DNA of 36,838 nucleotides. It comes from Acholeplasmataceae bacterium. GTDB taxonomy: Bacteria; Bacillota_I; Bacilli_A; ML615J-28; CAG-313. The position numbers and the translations under genes are program-made. Of the stretch, positions 11,669 through 20,007 are shown in pieces. Within the stretch, counting starts at the first letter, position 1. Every line of letters begins with the position of its first letter. The stretch lies in contig DUPC01000065.1 in NCBI GenBank assembly GCA_012838545.1, forward strand, positions 1 through 36,838. Reading direction: 5' to 3'. The notes beneath the pieces are model-generated. The model saw only the letters and a program-made list of their open reading frames with translations, ran no database searches and had not been told where the DNA came from.

Positions 11669-13048
11669 TTAAATTTTCGGAATCGTTATCAAAAACGAGG
11701 TTCCGCTTGTTGTTGATTCCAAAATTAGGTCCCCGCCATGTGCTTGGGCAATTTTTTTAGCAATCGATAAGCCTAGACCGCTTCCGGAATTGCTATTTCC
11801 TTCTGCTGCATTTCGGTGGACGAAAGGTTTAAAAAGATCGTGAACCAAATTCCCAGGAATGCCCACTCCGTTATCAGAAATCTTGATTTTAACCTTTTCT
11901 TCTTCAAAAAACAGCTTAAGCGAAAACAAAGTTCCTTTCGGATTATAGCGAATCGCATTATCGATTAAATTATTGATAATCCGCTTAAATTGTCCTTCAT
12001 TTAACATGACGTAAACTTCCGCGTCCGGAATATCGAATTCGTAGGAAAATTCCGCACTTTCGAGTTGGGGAATGATTTCGCCAATTATTATACGCAAAGT
12101 CTCGCAAAGCTCGGTTTTTTGCATTTTAAGGGCAAAATCGGGGCTTTCAATTTGCGACAGTTCAAACAGTTCTCTCAACATGAAGCTGGCACGCCGGCTG
12201 TTTTGATAAATGGCATGGAGTTCCGGCATGTCGAATTTTTCCTTTAACACTTCTGCATACCCCCCAATACTGGCTAAGGGATTCTTTAAATCATGAGAAA
12301 TGTCCAAAATCAGGCGGCGCCGGTTTTCTTCGGATTGTTTTCGCAAAGTGATTTCCTCTTCAATACGGCTGGCCATATCGTTGAAAGTATCTTGCAATTC
12401 TTTAAATTCGTTTTTAAGTTGCAAATCTACCCGCGCGGAATAATCGCCTTCTCTCAAAAGCGTAGTTCCTTGGATTAGTTTCTTAAGCGGGACAGTTATT
12501 TGGGATGAGATTAACCGAGCGTAAAAATAACTGATAAAGGCCAGAAGGAGGAGGTAAAAAACCCCCACACCCAATAAAACGCTTAGCGAACGGTTATATT
12601 CACTTCGGTGAGCTTCCTCATTGTAAACCAAAGCAAAATCAAAACGTAGGGAGGTAGGAAAGGTAATGATTAACCAAAACTCGCCCGTCGGTTCATACTC
12701 GATATCATAATGATAAGGTTTGTTTTTGATGCCGGTTAAAAGCGCTGTAAATTCCTGAACTGACAACTGGCTTTTTCGGATGGTATCAATCCCAACCGAA
12801 TAAACAACCGTATAATTTTTATCGATTATTTGCACCCCACCGCCGTTGGCCACAATTTCTGAAGCATCGATATCATGATAATCAGCTTGAATGACGGAAC
12901 GGGCGGAATAACGGTTTTTGGCTAAACTCCCGGCAATCCAGTTACTGGCGACGGATAAAAGGACAAAAGCCAAAACCATAGAAATTATTGTCAAAGCAAA
13001 TGTAATCCAAAAATAACCCAAAAAGGTATTTGACAATCTTTTTCTCAT
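11669..13048 (-). CDS. Sensor histidine kinase
   Basis: A 459-aa membrane kinase. TM1 (about 13-37), an extracellular sensor region of ~120 residues, and TM2 (about 157-178) are followed by a HAMP linker (about 180-232). The dimerisation domain has the phospho-acceptor His 252 in ISHDLKNPLAS. The ATPase domain shows N-box NNLIDNAIRYNP, G1 DNGVGIP, F-box LFKPF and G2 GSGLGLSIAKK. It phosphorylates the response regulator encoded 2 nt upstream. The signal is unknown; the extracellular part has no recognised domain. The ATG follows GGAAAG at short spacing. Confidence 0.95.
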   Translation of the reverse strand: MRKRLSNTFLGYFWITFALTIISMVLAFVLLSVASNWIAGSLAKNRYSARSVIQADYHDIDASEIVANGGGVQIIDKNYTVVYSVGIDTIRKSQLSVQEFTALLTGIKNKPYHYDIEYEPTGEFWLIITFPTSLRFDFALVYNEEAHRSEYNRSLSVLLGVGVFYLLLLAFISYFYARLISSQITVPLKKLIQGTTLLREGDYSARVDLQLKNEFKELQDTFNDMASRIEEEITLRKQSEENRRRLILDISHDLKNPLASIGGYAEVLKEKFDMPELHAIYQNSRRASFMLRELFELSQIESPDFALKMQKTELCETLRIIIGEIIPQLESAEFSYEFDIPDAEVYVMLNEGQFKRIINNLIDNAIRYNPKGTLFSLKLFFEEEKVKIKISDNGVGIPGNLVHDLFKPFVHRNAAEGNSNSGSGLGLSIAKKIAQAHGGDLILESTTSGTSFLITIPKI

Positions 13049-13050
13049 GT

Positions 13051-13746
13051 TTACTTTCCTGTATAATGAATTTTATAACCAATCCCTCGAATGGTTTTTA
13101 AATATTCGGGGTTTTGCGGATCGTCCTCAATTCGACTGCGCAACCGGCTGATATGGACCATAATAGTATTGTCGTCGAACATATAATCATCCTGCCAAAT
13201 AGCATAATACAATTGCTTTTTGGTGTAAACCCGTTCGGGGTTTTCCATAAAGTGCAAAAGTAATTTATACTCTTTGGCTCCCATCTCCAAAGGTTTATCG
13301 TCTTTATACACGGTGCAAGTCGCTTTATCGATTGAAAGATGTCCATATTTGATTAAGTTTTGATTTTTAGCAGTGCGTTCTTGATATTGATTGGCTCTTC
13401 TAAGGAGGGCTCTAACGCGCGCCAAAAGTTCCGCTACCGAAAATGGTTTGGCTAGATAATCATCTGCACCAAGGCTTAATCCTAATACTTTATCCATTTC
13501 ATCGGTTCTCGAAGTTAAAAAGATTACGGGAACCGTGGAAAATTCGCGCAAAGTACGCACCAAATTAAACCCATCCATCACCGGCATCATCACATCGATA
13601 ATCGCTAACTGGACGTCTTCTTTTTTTAACAGTTCAAGCGCTTCTTTTCCGTGGGCAGCCAAAACAACCCGATAACCGTTTTCCTCAAGCGCCATTTGCA
13701 AAAGGTTTCGAATATCCCTTTCGTCATCGACAACAAGAATGTTCAT
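13051..13746 (-). CDS. OmpR/PhoB-family response regulator
   Basis: A 231-aa DNA-binding regulator. The receiver domain carries the acidic pair DD at 7-8, phospho-Asp 51 in AIIDVMMP, Thr in FLTSR and Lys in AKPF. The C-terminal winged helix ends with the usual IRGIGYKIHY. The partner kinase follows after 2 nt. The ATG is preceded by GGAAGG. Targets cannot be inferred; the adjacent genes are mostly decayed. Confidence 0.96.
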   Translation of the reverse strand: MNILVVDDERDIRNLLQMALEENGYRVVLAAHGKEALELLKKEDVQLAIIDVMMPVMDGFNLVRTLREFSTVPVIFLTSRTDEMDKVLGLSLGADDYLAKPFSVAELLARVRALLRRANQYQERTAKNQNLIKYGHLSIDKATCTVYKDDKPLEMGAKEYKLLLHFMENPERVYTKKQLYYAIWQDDYMFDDNTIMVHISRLRSRIEDDPQNPEYLKTIRGIGYKIHYTGK

Positions 13747-15425: not shown

Positions 15426-16823
15426 TTACTTTTTCTTGTTTCGCCAAATTTCTTTGAGGATTTCGTTCTCTTGGCGGATTTGTTCTCTTACGGCTAGGGA
15501 ATCGGTTTTCAATTGGTCGCGAACGTTTTGGATTTCCCTTTTTAAATCATCCATAAATTCCTTAATTCGTTCACGGAACAATTCCATGATTAATTCTTCT
15601 AACTCTTCCAATTTAACGTTAATTTTTTCAAAACGCTTCCGATAATCATCGTGGATTTCGCGATAAACCTCGTTTATTATTCTATCTAAGCGATCCTGCC
15701 AATTTCCCGGGAAGCCTTCGCCTAATCGGTCCTTAAGGTTTTTTTCCAACAAGGCTTTTAACTCGTTGATTTGTTTGGTTAATTCTTGGCGCTGTAAGGT
15801 GATTTCTTTTATGCGTTCAAAAATATCTTCCAATTCTTGGGCAGTAATGTCAAATGGCCGGCGTTTTCTGATTTCTTCCGTTAATTCTTTAAGTTCTTTG
15901 TTCAATTCTTCCAAAAGTTTTTTGAGTTCTTCTAACTGCGTTTTAATTTCGGTGTTTTCCTCGCCATCTTCTTCGGTCACATCAGGAACGATTGCTTCCA
16001 ACAAGGCATTATAGTATTCTTGGTACAAATCTTTTATGTCTTGAACGGTTCCAGAGGATTGGGCCAAGATTTCTTCAAAGACTTCATCGGAGGCTGCTTG
16101 GATTTGAGTGTTGATGAATTCTTTGATTTTCAACATGTACTCGTTTTTGATATGGTCTTTTAACCTGAGATATTCTTGTCGGATTTCTTCCGAGAAAAAT
16201 TCTTTGATTTCATTTCGGTCTTCTTGAATGATGCGCAATAAATCCCGTACACTCATTTTTGCGGCTTCTTCAAAAGTAAGGCTTGAATCGATAGCTAGCA
16301 CGCAAGTGATTAGTTTTACTTTACCGACGGAGATATTATATTCTTCCGCTTTTGCTTTGATGTCTTCGGTTGCAGAAAAACTGGCTTTCAACACTTGGAC
16401 TCTGATTTTTCTTTGATTTATAAAGTCTTGCACCTTTTGTGAAACTTTTCTCTCCAAAGCTTCCGATTCGTCATTTGCCGAAGTAACGGTGGAAATAAGA
16501 ATAGCGTTTTCAACATCAAAGTTTAAGTAGCCAAAATCAAGGGCAAGTTGCAAAATAGCTTCGATTACCTCGTCAACTGTTTTTCCTTCAAAATTGGTTT
16601 CAATCAATAACCTTATTGCATCATTGTTTAAACCGTTGACTTGTACGACCATGCCGGTATCACCGGTAATTATTTCAATCGAAGGGTTGATATCGATGGT
16701 GATGTAAGCATTTTTAACATTATTCAAATCATAATCAGGGGCGGAATTTTTGTTGCAACCAACAAGCATAAACCCCAAGGTCAAGACCAATACAAACATA
16801 ATGGTATTTTTGGTTAATTTCAT
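15426..16823 (-). CDS. RsgI-like lipoprotein with a long coiled-coil tail
   Basis: A 465-aa lipoprotein with lipobox MLVGC (Cys 23). Residues ~38-215 match the extracellular middle domain of RsgI-type anti-sigma factors: YITIDINPSIEI, then repeated N-D/L-L motifs and GKVKLITCVLAIDSSLTFEEA. The Asn46-Pro47 bond corresponds to the N-P site at which the Clostridium thermocellum RsgI domain cleaves itself. The rest (~220-465) is highly charged coiled coil (EELKKLLEELNKELKELTEE). Unlike RsgI it has neither a membrane helix nor a cytosolic sigma-binding part. It follows the anti-sigma gene by 94 nt and shares its domain, so it probably acts as an extracellular partner, decoy or ligand sensor for it. 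AAAGGAGG precedes the ATG. Confidence 0.82.
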   Translation of the reverse strand: MKLTKNTIMFVLVLTLGFMLVGCNKNSAPDYDLNNVKNAYITIDINPSIEIITGDTGMVVQVNGLNNDAIRLLIETNFEGKTVDEVIEAILQLALDFGYLNFDVENAILISTVTSANDESEALERKVSQKVQDFINQRKIRVQVLKASFSATEDIKAKAEEYNISVGKVKLITCVLAIDSSLTFEEAAKMSVRDLLRIIQEDRNEIKEFFSEEIRQEYLRLKDHIKNEYMLKIKEFINTQIQAASDEVFEEILAQSSGTVQDIKDLYQEYYNALLEAIVPDVTEEDGEENTEIKTQLEELKKLLEELNKELKELTEEIRKRRPFDITAQELEDIFERIKEITLQRQELTKQINELKALLEKNLKDRLGEGFPGNWQDRLDRIINEVYREIHDDYRKRFEKINVKLEELEELIMELFRERIKEFMDDLKREIQNVRDQLKTDSLAVREQIRQENEILKEIWRNKKK

Positions 16824-16917
16824 ATTGTTTTCCTCCTTTTTTTAGTTTAAGTATTTATCAAAACTTTTCACTAGATTTAACAAGGGAAAAAGCCTTTTTT
16901 GTTAGTGCATAAGCGAA

Positions 16918-18216
16918 TTACAAATCGCTTTCTTCTAAAAAGTCGCGATAGACTTGTTCAAAGTTGAGAACAAATTCGTTTTGTCGAAAATCTTCGGATA
17001 CCAGGGCGATTTTTTCCAAATACTCTTTATATAAAAAACTGATTTTTTCGCTTGCTCCCCGATAATTGTTGTTGATCAACACATGAATCCGATTGATTAA
17101 CTTCAAGACGTCTTTTTCTGCTTTCGTGTATTTATTCGGTAAATCAATTAACCAAAAAGCATCATCGAGCACTAAGTTAAAATCGTCAATGCCGTTTTTG
17201 GCGTTTTCATGTACTTTGGCTCTGTAGGAAGCGATTTTGATTTCAAGGTTATCATTAACCATTTCGTCATAGAAAACAAAATACTCTTCATAATAAGACT
17301 CAATTGACTCAAGCAAATCCCAAAGATTGCTTACCTCGGTCGGGTTGTAATTAAATTCTGGAAAAAACCTATCGACCAAGCGAAAAAATTGTTCCGGTTT
17401 TTTAAGGGAGGACAAAATTGTTTTTAAAGTTTCCAAATGGTTTTCGACGATGGCTCTTTTCCCTTCCAAAACCTTTTGGTTGCGTTCATATTCGTTCTTC
17501 AGTTGTTTTAGGTTTTTTCGATATTGTTCCTTAAACTTTTCTACTTTGGTTTGGGCATTTTCCTTTAGGATTGCCATTAAGGCTTTATGGTCCATCGTCA
17601 AGGCTTCTTCAATTGTAAGGTTTGAGTCAGCTCCCATGACTTGATTGATTAAAACCATCTTGCCTAGGGAAATTCCTAATTCTGCAGCTTTTTCTTTCCA
17701 TTCGTCATGGCTTCTGACAATTCCCGGCCGATGTTTCTCAACCGTTTCTTTGATGCGACTGGCAATTTTTGTTTCAAGCAAATCGTTTTTGTTGATGGCA
17801 GAAACCGTCAGCTTGCTGTCTTCCGTTTGCAAGTATCCTTGTTTTTCGGCTTCATTAAGAAGAATTAATAAAGCCTCTTCAATTTTTTTATCGATTAAAT
17901 CAATGTTTTCCAATAGGAAAAAGCCATCGACATTTAAAGAGCTGACATCCGTCACTTTATCTTTATTGTTTATCTCTAGTTCAACCATGGGGTTTATTTC
18001 AATAATGACATAGGAGTTGGATACGCTTTGAAGGTTTAAAAAGGTTAATAATGAAAGTATTAACCCTATCGAAAGCATCAAAGAGTAGACTAAGCTCCTT
18101 TTAATGGATAGCTTTGGACGCATTTTTCGGTATCCAATGCTTTGGTAAATTTGGTCCTTTAGGTCAGGAACAAAGGTTTTGCTTTCCTTTACCAGTTGTT
18201 TTTTAAGATTTCTCAT
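16918..18216 (-). CDS. Membrane RsgI-like anti-sigma factor
   Basis: A 432-aa single-pass protein. A basic cytosolic segment (1-40; FVPDLKDQIYQSIGYRKMRPK), a transmembrane helix (about 42-62) and an extracellular RsgI-like domain follow. That domain begins YVIIEINPMVELEI, with the candidate self-cleavage bond Asn75-Pro76, and continues to GKMVLINQVMGADSNLTIEEA. A ~230-residue helical tail ends the protein. The short N-terminus is not the classical RsgI_N or zinc anti-sigma domain, so how it binds sigma is unclear. ATG at 18216 is chosen: it overlaps the sigma stop and gives a compact N-terminus, with GGGAG 14 nt upstream. An in-frame ATG at 18255 is possible but has a poor site. Coupled translation with the sigma factor fits a sigma/anti-sigma pair. 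Confidence 0.82.
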   Translation of the reverse strand: MRNLKKQLVKESKTFVPDLKDQIYQSIGYRKMRPKLSIKRSLVYSLMLSIGLILSLLTFLNLQSVSNSYVIIEINPMVELEINNKDKVTDVSSLNVDGFFLLENIDLIDKKIEEALLILLNEAEKQGYLQTEDSKLTVSAINKNDLLETKIASRIKETVEKHRPGIVRSHDEWKEKAAELGISLGKMVLINQVMGADSNLTIEEALTMDHKALMAILKENAQTKVEKFKEQYRKNLKQLKNEYERNQKVLEGKRAIVENHLETLKTILSSLKKPEQFFRLVDRFFPEFNYNPTEVSNLWDLLESIESYYEEYFVFYDEMVNDNLEIKIASYRAKVHENAKNGIDDFNLVLDDAFWLIDLPNKYTKAEKDVLKLINRIHVLINNNYRGASEKISFLYKEYLEKIALVSEDFRQNEFVLNFEQVYRDFLEESDL

Positions 18217-18730
18217 TTTCTTTATGCAACTCCCTTCGTAATTTTTCCAAGGCATGGTGCAATTTCCAGGTTACCCCACTAGTCGACAGATTGAACAACT
18301 TAGCAACTTCCCTTCTTTTATACTTTTCGACCACACATAACATGACAATATTAAATTCATCTTCCTCCAGGATGCGCGAAGCCAAATCAATCAGCGGGGT
18401 ATCAAGATTGGCATTGTTTTCGGGGATATCTTTGATATTCTCCACAAAACTAACCTTTTCTTTGGCTTTTTTTTGATAAAAGTTTAGCGCCAGGTTTTTG
18501 GCGATGGAACAAATCCACGCTTTAGGCGAATCCGTAAATTGGTGGATTTTTTCATAGACTTTCATATAAACTTGTTGCAGGACATCTTCTGCGTCTGTTT
18601 TATTTTTTAAAACCGAATAGATAACGTAAAAAACCAATCGATGCGTTTCTTCATATATGATGTCAAATTGGGAATCATCGCCGTTTTTTAGAGCTATCAT
18701 ACTATTCTCAAGTCGCTTTTTGTTGAACAC
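18203..18730 (-). CDS. ECF-type sigma-70 family RNA polymerase sigma factor
   Basis: A 175-aa sigma factor with region 2 (about 22-88; FYVIYSVLKNKTDAEDVLQQVYMKVY and AWICSIAKNLALNFYQ) and region 4 (about 125-170; KRREVAKLFNLSTSGVTWKLHHALEKLRREL). It lacks regions 1 and 3, as is typical of ECF sigma factors. GTG at 18730 is preferred over the in-frame ATG at 18769 because AGGAGG lies 6 nt before it. The ATG at 18769 lies inside an inverted repeat and would add a poorly conserved extension. The gene overlaps the RsgI-like anti-sigma gene, which probably holds it inactive at the membrane until extracellular cleavage. Confidence 0.92.
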   Translation of the reverse strand: MFNKKRLENSMIALKNGDDSQFDIIYEETHRLVFYVIYSVLKNKTDAEDVLQQVYMKVYEKIHQFTDSPKAWICSIAKNLALNFYQKKAKEKVSFVENIKDIPENNANLDTPLIDLASRILEEDEFNIVMLCVVEKYKRREVAKLFNLSTSGVTWKLHHALEKLRRELHKENEKS

Positions 18731-18751
18731 TTGCGTCCTCCTCAGTATGTC

Positions 18752-18795
18752 AATGATAACTCTTTTCATATATTAGACAAAAAAGAGTTATCATT
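18752..18795. repeat. 15-bp perfect inverted repeat upstream of the sigma gene
   Basis: Arms AATGATAACTCTTTT (18752-18766) and AAAAGAGTTATCATT (18781-18795) are perfect complements around 14 nt. The proximal arm is 10 nt from the AGGAGG site of the sigma gene. It could be an operator or, if transcribed, an RNA hairpin next to the ribosome binding site. No T-run follows. Confidence 0.85.
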
Positions 18796-18889
18796 TTGTT
18801 AGTATTTTTATAATTTTTTTCACAAGATTTTTCACTTAAATTATACCATTTCTTTTTGCCTTTTTTGTTTTATTCACTTTTCTTTCCCC

Positions 18890-19294: not shown

Positions 19295-20007
19295 CTATTC
19301 CTCCCGAAAAAAAACTTTAAATTCTTCTAAAATGGTGGTTTGAGGGAAAGCTTTATCGAAAATACGGTAAACCCTATATTGCCTGTCTTTATCATTCACC
19401 ACATATTCATCAGCCTTCAAGTAGTAAATGCGTTTTTAGTCCCCCAAAAGACCATTTTTTTCAATCTTGGAACTGGTTTTGGCAAAACTTAAGGGTGTTG
19501 AGGTCAAAAACTAAACACCCCCCTTTCTTAAGCGCTTTAAAGGCAATTCCTAATAACTTTTTTCTTTCATCTTCTCCAAGAAAGGCAAAATCGCAATAAA
19601 TAGGCAAAATCAAGTCAAATTTGCTCCAATAATCGCTATTTAAGAAATCCATGCCAAAATAGGCATTATGGGGATTTTGTCCTTTTGCATCACAATCAAG
19701 CAAGAGGAAAAATCAATTCTAATCCCAAAATACCTTTTTGGTTCTTAAATTGACATTGCCCCATTTCCGCACCCTAAATCAAGTTCTATGGAAAAGTTGT
19801 TCATGGTAAAGTTTGGCAAATCTATTCTCCTGACTTGTTTACCACCAAATGATTCCGCGTATCCTCATCCCCTTCAGGGTTCAAATGCGCTTTCAACAAA
19901 CTTTTGGAAATTTGTTCGTCATTCCCAAAGGGATGGGTGCTTAGTACAAAAAGTCTTGCTTTTTTTAATCGGTCAATAGATGTTGCGCTTTTCCTTCTAA
20001 AACTCAC
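19295..20007 (-). pseudogene. Broken class I SAM methyltransferase gene (second)
   Basis: The order of a known methyltransferase type is visible in shifted frames. The N-terminal segment is DEQISKSLLKAHLNPEGDEDTRN (positions below 20007), then the SAM-binding motif LDLGCGNGAMS, then YFGMDFLNSDYWSKFDLILPIYCDFAFL, LKKGGCLVFDLNT, and a tail YVVNDKDRQYRVYRIFDKAF...FREE ending at a TAG (19295-19297). At least three frame changes or stops interrupt it. It is a different methyltransferase from the one at 11014-11577. Confidence 0.72.

Follow-up and report, generated by a model that had tools for sequence, protein, structure and literature searches.

RsgI-type sensing of force or of a ligand is known for SigI, mostly in cell-wall stress and the control of cellulosomes. 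The RsgI pathway runs through autocleavage, RseP, and ClpP (PMC12203970), and SigI has no region 4 (PMC6056542). RsgI9 of Clostridium thermocellum is an orphan RsgI that spans the membrane and has an intracellular domain (PMC12203970). Class II anti-sigma domains have fewer than 50 residues in two helices and wrap the sigma factor such that helix 1 lies against region 4 and helix 2 against region 2 (PMC7406223).

We analyzed a 36,838-nucleotide contig of an Acholeplasmataceae bacterium (DUPC01000065.1; the whole stretch is the window referred to below). On its minus strand, genes for an ECF sigma factor, a membrane anti-sigma factor, and a lipoprotein, here called the triad, follow one another in the order of transcription (Table 1). 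As with SigI/RsgI of Bacillus subtilis and C. thermocellum, the sigma and anti-sigma genes are adjacent, a site-2 protease is present, and the anti-sigma factor combines one transmembrane (TM) helix with a SEAL (RsgI_M) ectodomain that has an N-P bond beside the membrane. Of the traits of a canonical RsgI, the predicted protein thus has the SEAL ectodomain with its N-P bond and lacks RsgI_N and an adjacent SigI: the neighboring sigma factor is of the ECF type, with the regions 2 and 4 of which SigI lacks the latter (PMC6056542), and an additional SEAL lipoprotein stands under the same predicted promoter. Each part is known in kind, and what would be new is the combination under a common promoter. 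In a limited literature search we did not find an ECF sigma factor, SEAL anti-sigma factor, and SEAL lipoprotein on one promoter described; prior mention of ECF-SEAL pairs is possible.

Table 1. Predicted features of the triad locus (positions in the window)
Feature	Position	Strand	Evidence
ECF sigma factor	18203..18730	(-)	Sigma70_r2, sigma70-ECF; start from RBS, promoter position, and lengths in relatives
Membrane anti-sigma factor	16918..18216	(-)	RsgI_M, 83.9 bits; AlphaFold mean pLDDT 85; Foldseek match to RsgI
SEAL lipoprotein	15426..16823	(-)	RsgI_M, 95 bits; conserved C23, N46, P47; AlphaFold/Foldseek match to RsgI
Codons of predicted self-cleavage bond N75-P76, anti-sigma factor	17989..17994	(-)	Aligns to first residue of solved RsgI chains; invariant in alignments
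Codons of predicted self-cleavage bond N46-P47, lipoprotein	16683..16688	(-)	Aligns to first residue of solved RsgI chains
Predicted ECF promoter, sigma/anti-sigma genes, ACTAACAAAA-N13-TTGTCTAAT	18772..18803	(-)	Second-best match, whole genome
Predicted ECF promoter, lipoprotein gene, ACTAACAAAA-N13-TTGTTAAAT	16875..16906	(-)	Best match (0 mismatches), whole genome; same place in relatives
Perfect 15-bp inverted repeat	18752..18795	(.)	Flanks -10 element of sigma promoter

Proteins of the triad

The sigma factor matches Pfam Sigma70_r2 at 54.7 bits and exceeds the NCBIfam sigma70-ECF cut-off (66 versus 42.9 bits), with region 4 slightly under its Pfam cut-off (22.3 versus 25.7 bits). On the sigma70-ECF match and the presence of regions 2 and 4, we assign the predicted protein to the ECF class, in agreement with an initial annotation of this DNA. 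Translation probably starts at GTG 18730 behind AGGAGG rather than at ATG 18769, the start of a longer open reading frame, because ATG 18769 coincides with the transcription start expected from the promoter at 18772-18803, and because the AGGAGG before 18730 is a good ribosome-binding site and the conserved promoter ends at 18772. The anti-sigma gene begins within the 3' end of the sigma gene. Short open reading frames at 19461-20007, upstream of the sigma gene, weakly match a methyltransferase and may be what is left of a decayed gene; downstream of the triad and on its strand, 11669-13746 encode an OmpR/VanR-like pair of response regulator and histidine kinase.

In the predicted structure, the anti-sigma factor begins with some 37 cytosolic residues, followed by a single TM helix (about residues 38-62), the SEAL domain, and a helical arm. 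RsgI_M (PF23750; cut-off, 25.3 bits) matches residues 81-204 of the long open reading frame; the N-P bond is N75-P76 when the protein is read from ATG 18216. The lipoprotein has a signal peptide and an LVGC lipobox, by which it would be a bacterial lipoprotein, and no cytosolic part; its C23 is invariant in the alignment of relatives. Residues 39-172 match RsgI_M, and residues 212-464 are almost wholly helical in the AlphaFold model, a coiled-coil arm of about 250 residues. We attributed matches of this arm to coiled-coil families in Pfam and NCBIfam (ZorA, ATG14, and others) to its composition and set them aside. The lipoprotein resembles RsgI9 (PDB 8u9o) as a SEAL protein without a sigma partner gene of its own, but RsgI9 is transmembrane with an intracellular domain (PMC12203970).

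RsgI structures (8t9n, 8hdj, and 8her) were the sole significant Foldseek matches of both proteins. The anti-sigma model matched the RsgI entries 8t9n and 8hdj with E values of about 1e-5 to 1e-4; its TMt was 0.68 and 0.81 with the GGG mutant of B. subtilis RsgI and lower with other RsgI structures, and the lipoprotein model reached 0.66-0.72 against RsgI domains. In either model, the N-P bond is flanked by strands 1 and 2 of the domain, and phmmer matched both proteins to solved C. thermocellum RsgI periplasmic chains that start exactly at the P of N-P. As modeled, both domains therefore have the RsgI periplasmic fold. N-P is kept in 48 of the 48 SEAL sequences aligned, which excludes its occurrence by chance; self-cleavage at this bond in either protein would follow by homology only. 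The architecture given in the initial annotation, one RsgI-type protein with a single membrane helix and Asn75-Pro76 and a second, lipid-anchored one with Asn46-Pro47 and a coiled-coil end, thus holds, and the N-P segments do align to the RsgI middle-domain fold, the lack of which it had named as a refutation.

Its description of the cytosolic segment as novel is weakened. Pfam returned neither RsgI_N on the anti-sigma factor nor any other match to this segment, and RsgI_N (PF12791) is absent from the genome and over the cut-off in none of 60 relatives. The segment, with about 37 residues and two predicted helices ahead of the TM helix, would fit class II anti-sigma domains such as that of CnrY (PMC7406223). 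A motif in it, LKKxLxxExxxxxPDxxxxI, recurs in ECF anti-sigma factors of Clostridia and Erysipelotrichaceae that bear other ectodomains, some of them with three tandem copies; by sequence, the segment is common to a broad set of ECF anti-sigma factors and not peculiar to this locus. CnrY, to our knowledge, has no SEAL ectodomain. Four ECF anti-sigma factors (L081:2106-3797, L082:6530-8206, L090:2723-4531, and L098:4467-6134) have about three copies of the short motif before the TM helix. In three others (L058:5287-6675, L059:5262-6641, and L062:4537-5925), a lipobox-like IVIGC closes the TM helix, with an internal Met ahead of it; these could be intermediates between anti-sigma factor and lipoprotein, or genes with dual products.

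Candidate promoters

A candidate promoter, ACTRRCAAAA-N12/13-TTGTTATAT, precedes the sigma gene, and a second copy precedes the lipoprotein gene. The motif was first read by eye in these same upstream regions and scanned afterwards; genome-wide counts and a second lineage provide the independent checks. The window contains five matches versus 0.29 expected by chance, the top two being those at the sigma and lipoprotein genes. The same two sites are the best in the 1.7-Mb genome, where all others are at the level of the control; sites with three mismatches number 26 versus 23 in the control and give no sign of a wider regulon in this genome, although strict matching could underestimate a degenerate regulon.

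Among the 60 relatives, 13 of 14 exact matches lie in triad loci, at the sigma or the lipoprotein gene (reversed-pattern control, 1), with two sites per genome where the contig allows. In genomes with a match at both genes, the spacer is equal at the two: 13 in G000, G026, and G048 and 12 in G022, G028, G031, and G032. The fourteenth site (L226:4001-4793, on G032:C57) is about 20 bases before a lipoprotein gene with a trypsin/HtrA-like domain (Trypsin_2, 49 bits), inside which the contig ends; its position is consistent with an envelope-stress response. The sigma gene thus carries the predicted promoter of its own sigma factor, as in ECF-type autoregulation, and the lipoprotein is likely to be sigma dependent.

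The second lineage, family f10, has an anti-sigma factor without SEAL, and the downstream SEAL lipoprotein shares that sigma factor's other promoter, ACCAATAAAA-N12-TTGTATATT, which matches at 16-19 of 19 positions in seven of eight loci (shuffled maxima, 15-16). At loci where the lipoprotein precedes the sigma gene (L253, L296, and others), we found no separate shared promoter. The arms of the inverted repeat at the sigma promoter (18752-18766 and 18781-18795) form a dyad around the -10 element; we rejected it as a general conserved feature, since it is strong at only 3 of 18 sites (here and upstream of the sigma genes of L057 and L038).

Distribution and evolution of the triad

SEAL domains are present in 29 of the 60 relatives and in 133 of 395 genomes of the class. 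The triad, in varying organization, occurs in G000, G005, G016, G022, G026, G028, G031, G032, and G048, which belong to three families, two of them in this order, and also in other families of the class; in G001, the upstream lipoprotein belongs to another branch. In G048 (a contig of Inordinaticella fortuita; L033:6379-10090), the anti-sigma and lipoprotein genes are separated by one gene for an HTH protein and three for an ABC-2 transporter. A first sigma alignment was too diverse for scanning the collection, and a narrower one was used: the model of this sigma factor scored 211-297 bits in 10 genomes, and in no other did the score exceed 155. All nine evaluable genomes with this close-form sigma have the lipoprotein, and the tenth ends in a contig break. 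The co-occurrence in relatives that the initial annotation had proposed as a check is therefore found, and triads recur. It had also regarded ECF pairing as unusual for an RsgI-type protein, RsgI being normally paired with SigI; the sigma factor here is indeed ECF, but among the loci read, 51 SEAL proteins stand directly behind an ECF sigma versus 2 with RsgI_N, and in this class ECF pairing of SEAL anti-sigma factors is usually the rule. One RsgI with a weak RsgI_N match is directly followed by a SEAL lipoprotein (L302:3296-5176), a companion beside a more classical RsgI.

The linkage is looser in the wider set. Of 54 SEAL lipoproteins examined, 29 are encoded no more than 5 kb from an ECF sigma gene; the other 25 have no sigma of this type within that distance (one is 5.2 kb off, and some are at contig ends), and therefore the lipoprotein has uses outside the circuit. 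Some genomes without any SEAL anti-sigma factor still carry SEAL lipoproteins, SEAL lipoproteins also adjoin sigma factors whose anti-sigma factor has no SEAL, and loci with the sigma/anti-sigma pair and no adjacent lipoprotein are common. On a phylogenetic tree, the triad lipoproteins form a single supported clade (96/90), with at least three switches overall between anti-sigma and lipoprotein labels. The SEAL domain is more conserved in the lipoprotein than in the anti-sigma factor in 45 of 45 genome pairs (mean identity, 0.48 versus 0.33).

Proposed circuit and role of the lipoprotein

Domain identities, topology, the shared promoter, and co-inheritance, all deduced from sequence, make it fairly probable that the triad is a self-contained envelope-signaling circuit with the lipoprotein as the sigma factor's dedicated output. 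We read the lipoprotein as an output because it has its own upstream copy of the sigma promoter; the strongest argument that it is not a partner of the SEAL anti-sigma factor is that the f10 lipoprotein shares the sigma promoter though no SEAL anti-sigma factor is there.

The initial annotation had instead proposed a partner that exchanges SEAL halves with the anti-sigma factor or titrates its ligand, thereby setting sigma activity. The two proteins share a domain, an operon neighborhood, and co-inheritance, and sigma-driven synthesis of the lipoprotein would fit negative feedback. However, the lipoprotein stays with the sigma factor where the anti-sigma factor lacks SEAL and occurs alone in genomes without SEAL anti-sigma factors, and the pre-cleavage strands of the two proteins show no within-genome matching (p=0.71, with low power at n=10). 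We consider such a partnership unlikely; exchange gained no positive support and is not needed to explain the lipoprotein. Titration of the ligand is possible and gains no support, because the helical arms of the two proteins have no homology detectable by hhalign.

The lipoprotein might also serve signal input, binding a ligand or surface and pulling on the arm of the anti-sigma factor. Its long coiled-coil arm, the slower evolution of its SEAL domain, and the strict linkage within the close group would suit a co-sensor, but the frequency of pair-only loci and the absence of any sign of contact between lipoprotein and anti-sigma factor make this quite improbable. That the lipoprotein SEAL is just a stable, noncleaving domain reused after duplication of an anti-sigma factor is very unlikely: the label switches would allow loss of the original role, but N-P is invariant in 21 of 21 lipoproteins of the tree set and D44-I45-N46-P47-S48 is conserved across the triad group.

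For the circuit with the lipoprotein as output, force sensing, RseP cleavage, sigma binding, and noncovalent retention are taken from RsgI by homology only. The anti-sigma factor would hold the ECF sigma through its two-helix cytosolic segment, and its extracellular SEAL domain would cleave itself at N-P, the halves remaining associated. Pulling on the helical arm, or a ligand bound there, would separate the halves, and a site-2 protease would then cut the TM helix and free the sigma factor; a full-length site-2 protease, as expected for regulated intramembrane proteolysis, is encoded in the same genome (C34:12054-13589). The freed sigma factor would transcribe its own operon and, from the separate copy of its promoter, the lipoprotein gene. 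The product would be a lipid-anchored coiled-coil surface protein in which SEAL forms a cleavable noncovalent joint that only about 23 residues separate from the lipid; the distance between lipidated Cys and N-P bond is 15-28 residues in 20 of the 21 lipoproteins listed. This protein may be a protective or structural stalk or may relieve the signal by feedback; we favor the stalk, with a releasable joint at the surface.

FtsW/RodA is absent and Mur-ligase-type matches number 0-2 in the triad genomes G016, G022, G026, and G031, which by gene content seem wall-less, less certainly so for G031, which is 86% complete; both sets are present in G000, G005, G028, G032, and G048. A peptidoglycan signal would therefore not be required in all carriers. 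A bolder reading, possible though doubtful, is a closed mechanosensory loop in which the sigma factor is freed by breakage of a SEAL joint and its main product is a surface lipoprotein with the same joint, so that SEAL acts as a lipid anchor that can be released, by shedding or yielding under the same force, also where bacteria lack peptidoglycan. Eukaryotic SEA-domain surface proteins, such as mucins, have a juxtamembrane joint that is self-cleaved and held noncovalently. The SEAL lipoproteins would be alike should they indeed be cleaved, a comparison of principle only, as our tests gave no homology.

The self-cleaving SEAL domain here appears to serve ECF sigma factors across the whole class. 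It also occurs on lipoproteins, through which no signaling across the membrane is possible, and in four genomes that look wall-less, occurrences that suggest use of the joint outside anti-sigma proteolysis. With its likely promoter named, the triad is a compact three-gene system for testing what the SEAL joint senses. Other SEAL architectures include an 890-residue lipoprotein with three tandem SEAL domains (L281:3086-5758) and a 710-residue protein, with no sigma gene nearby, in which SEAL is followed by six PepSY domains (L047:5457-7589).
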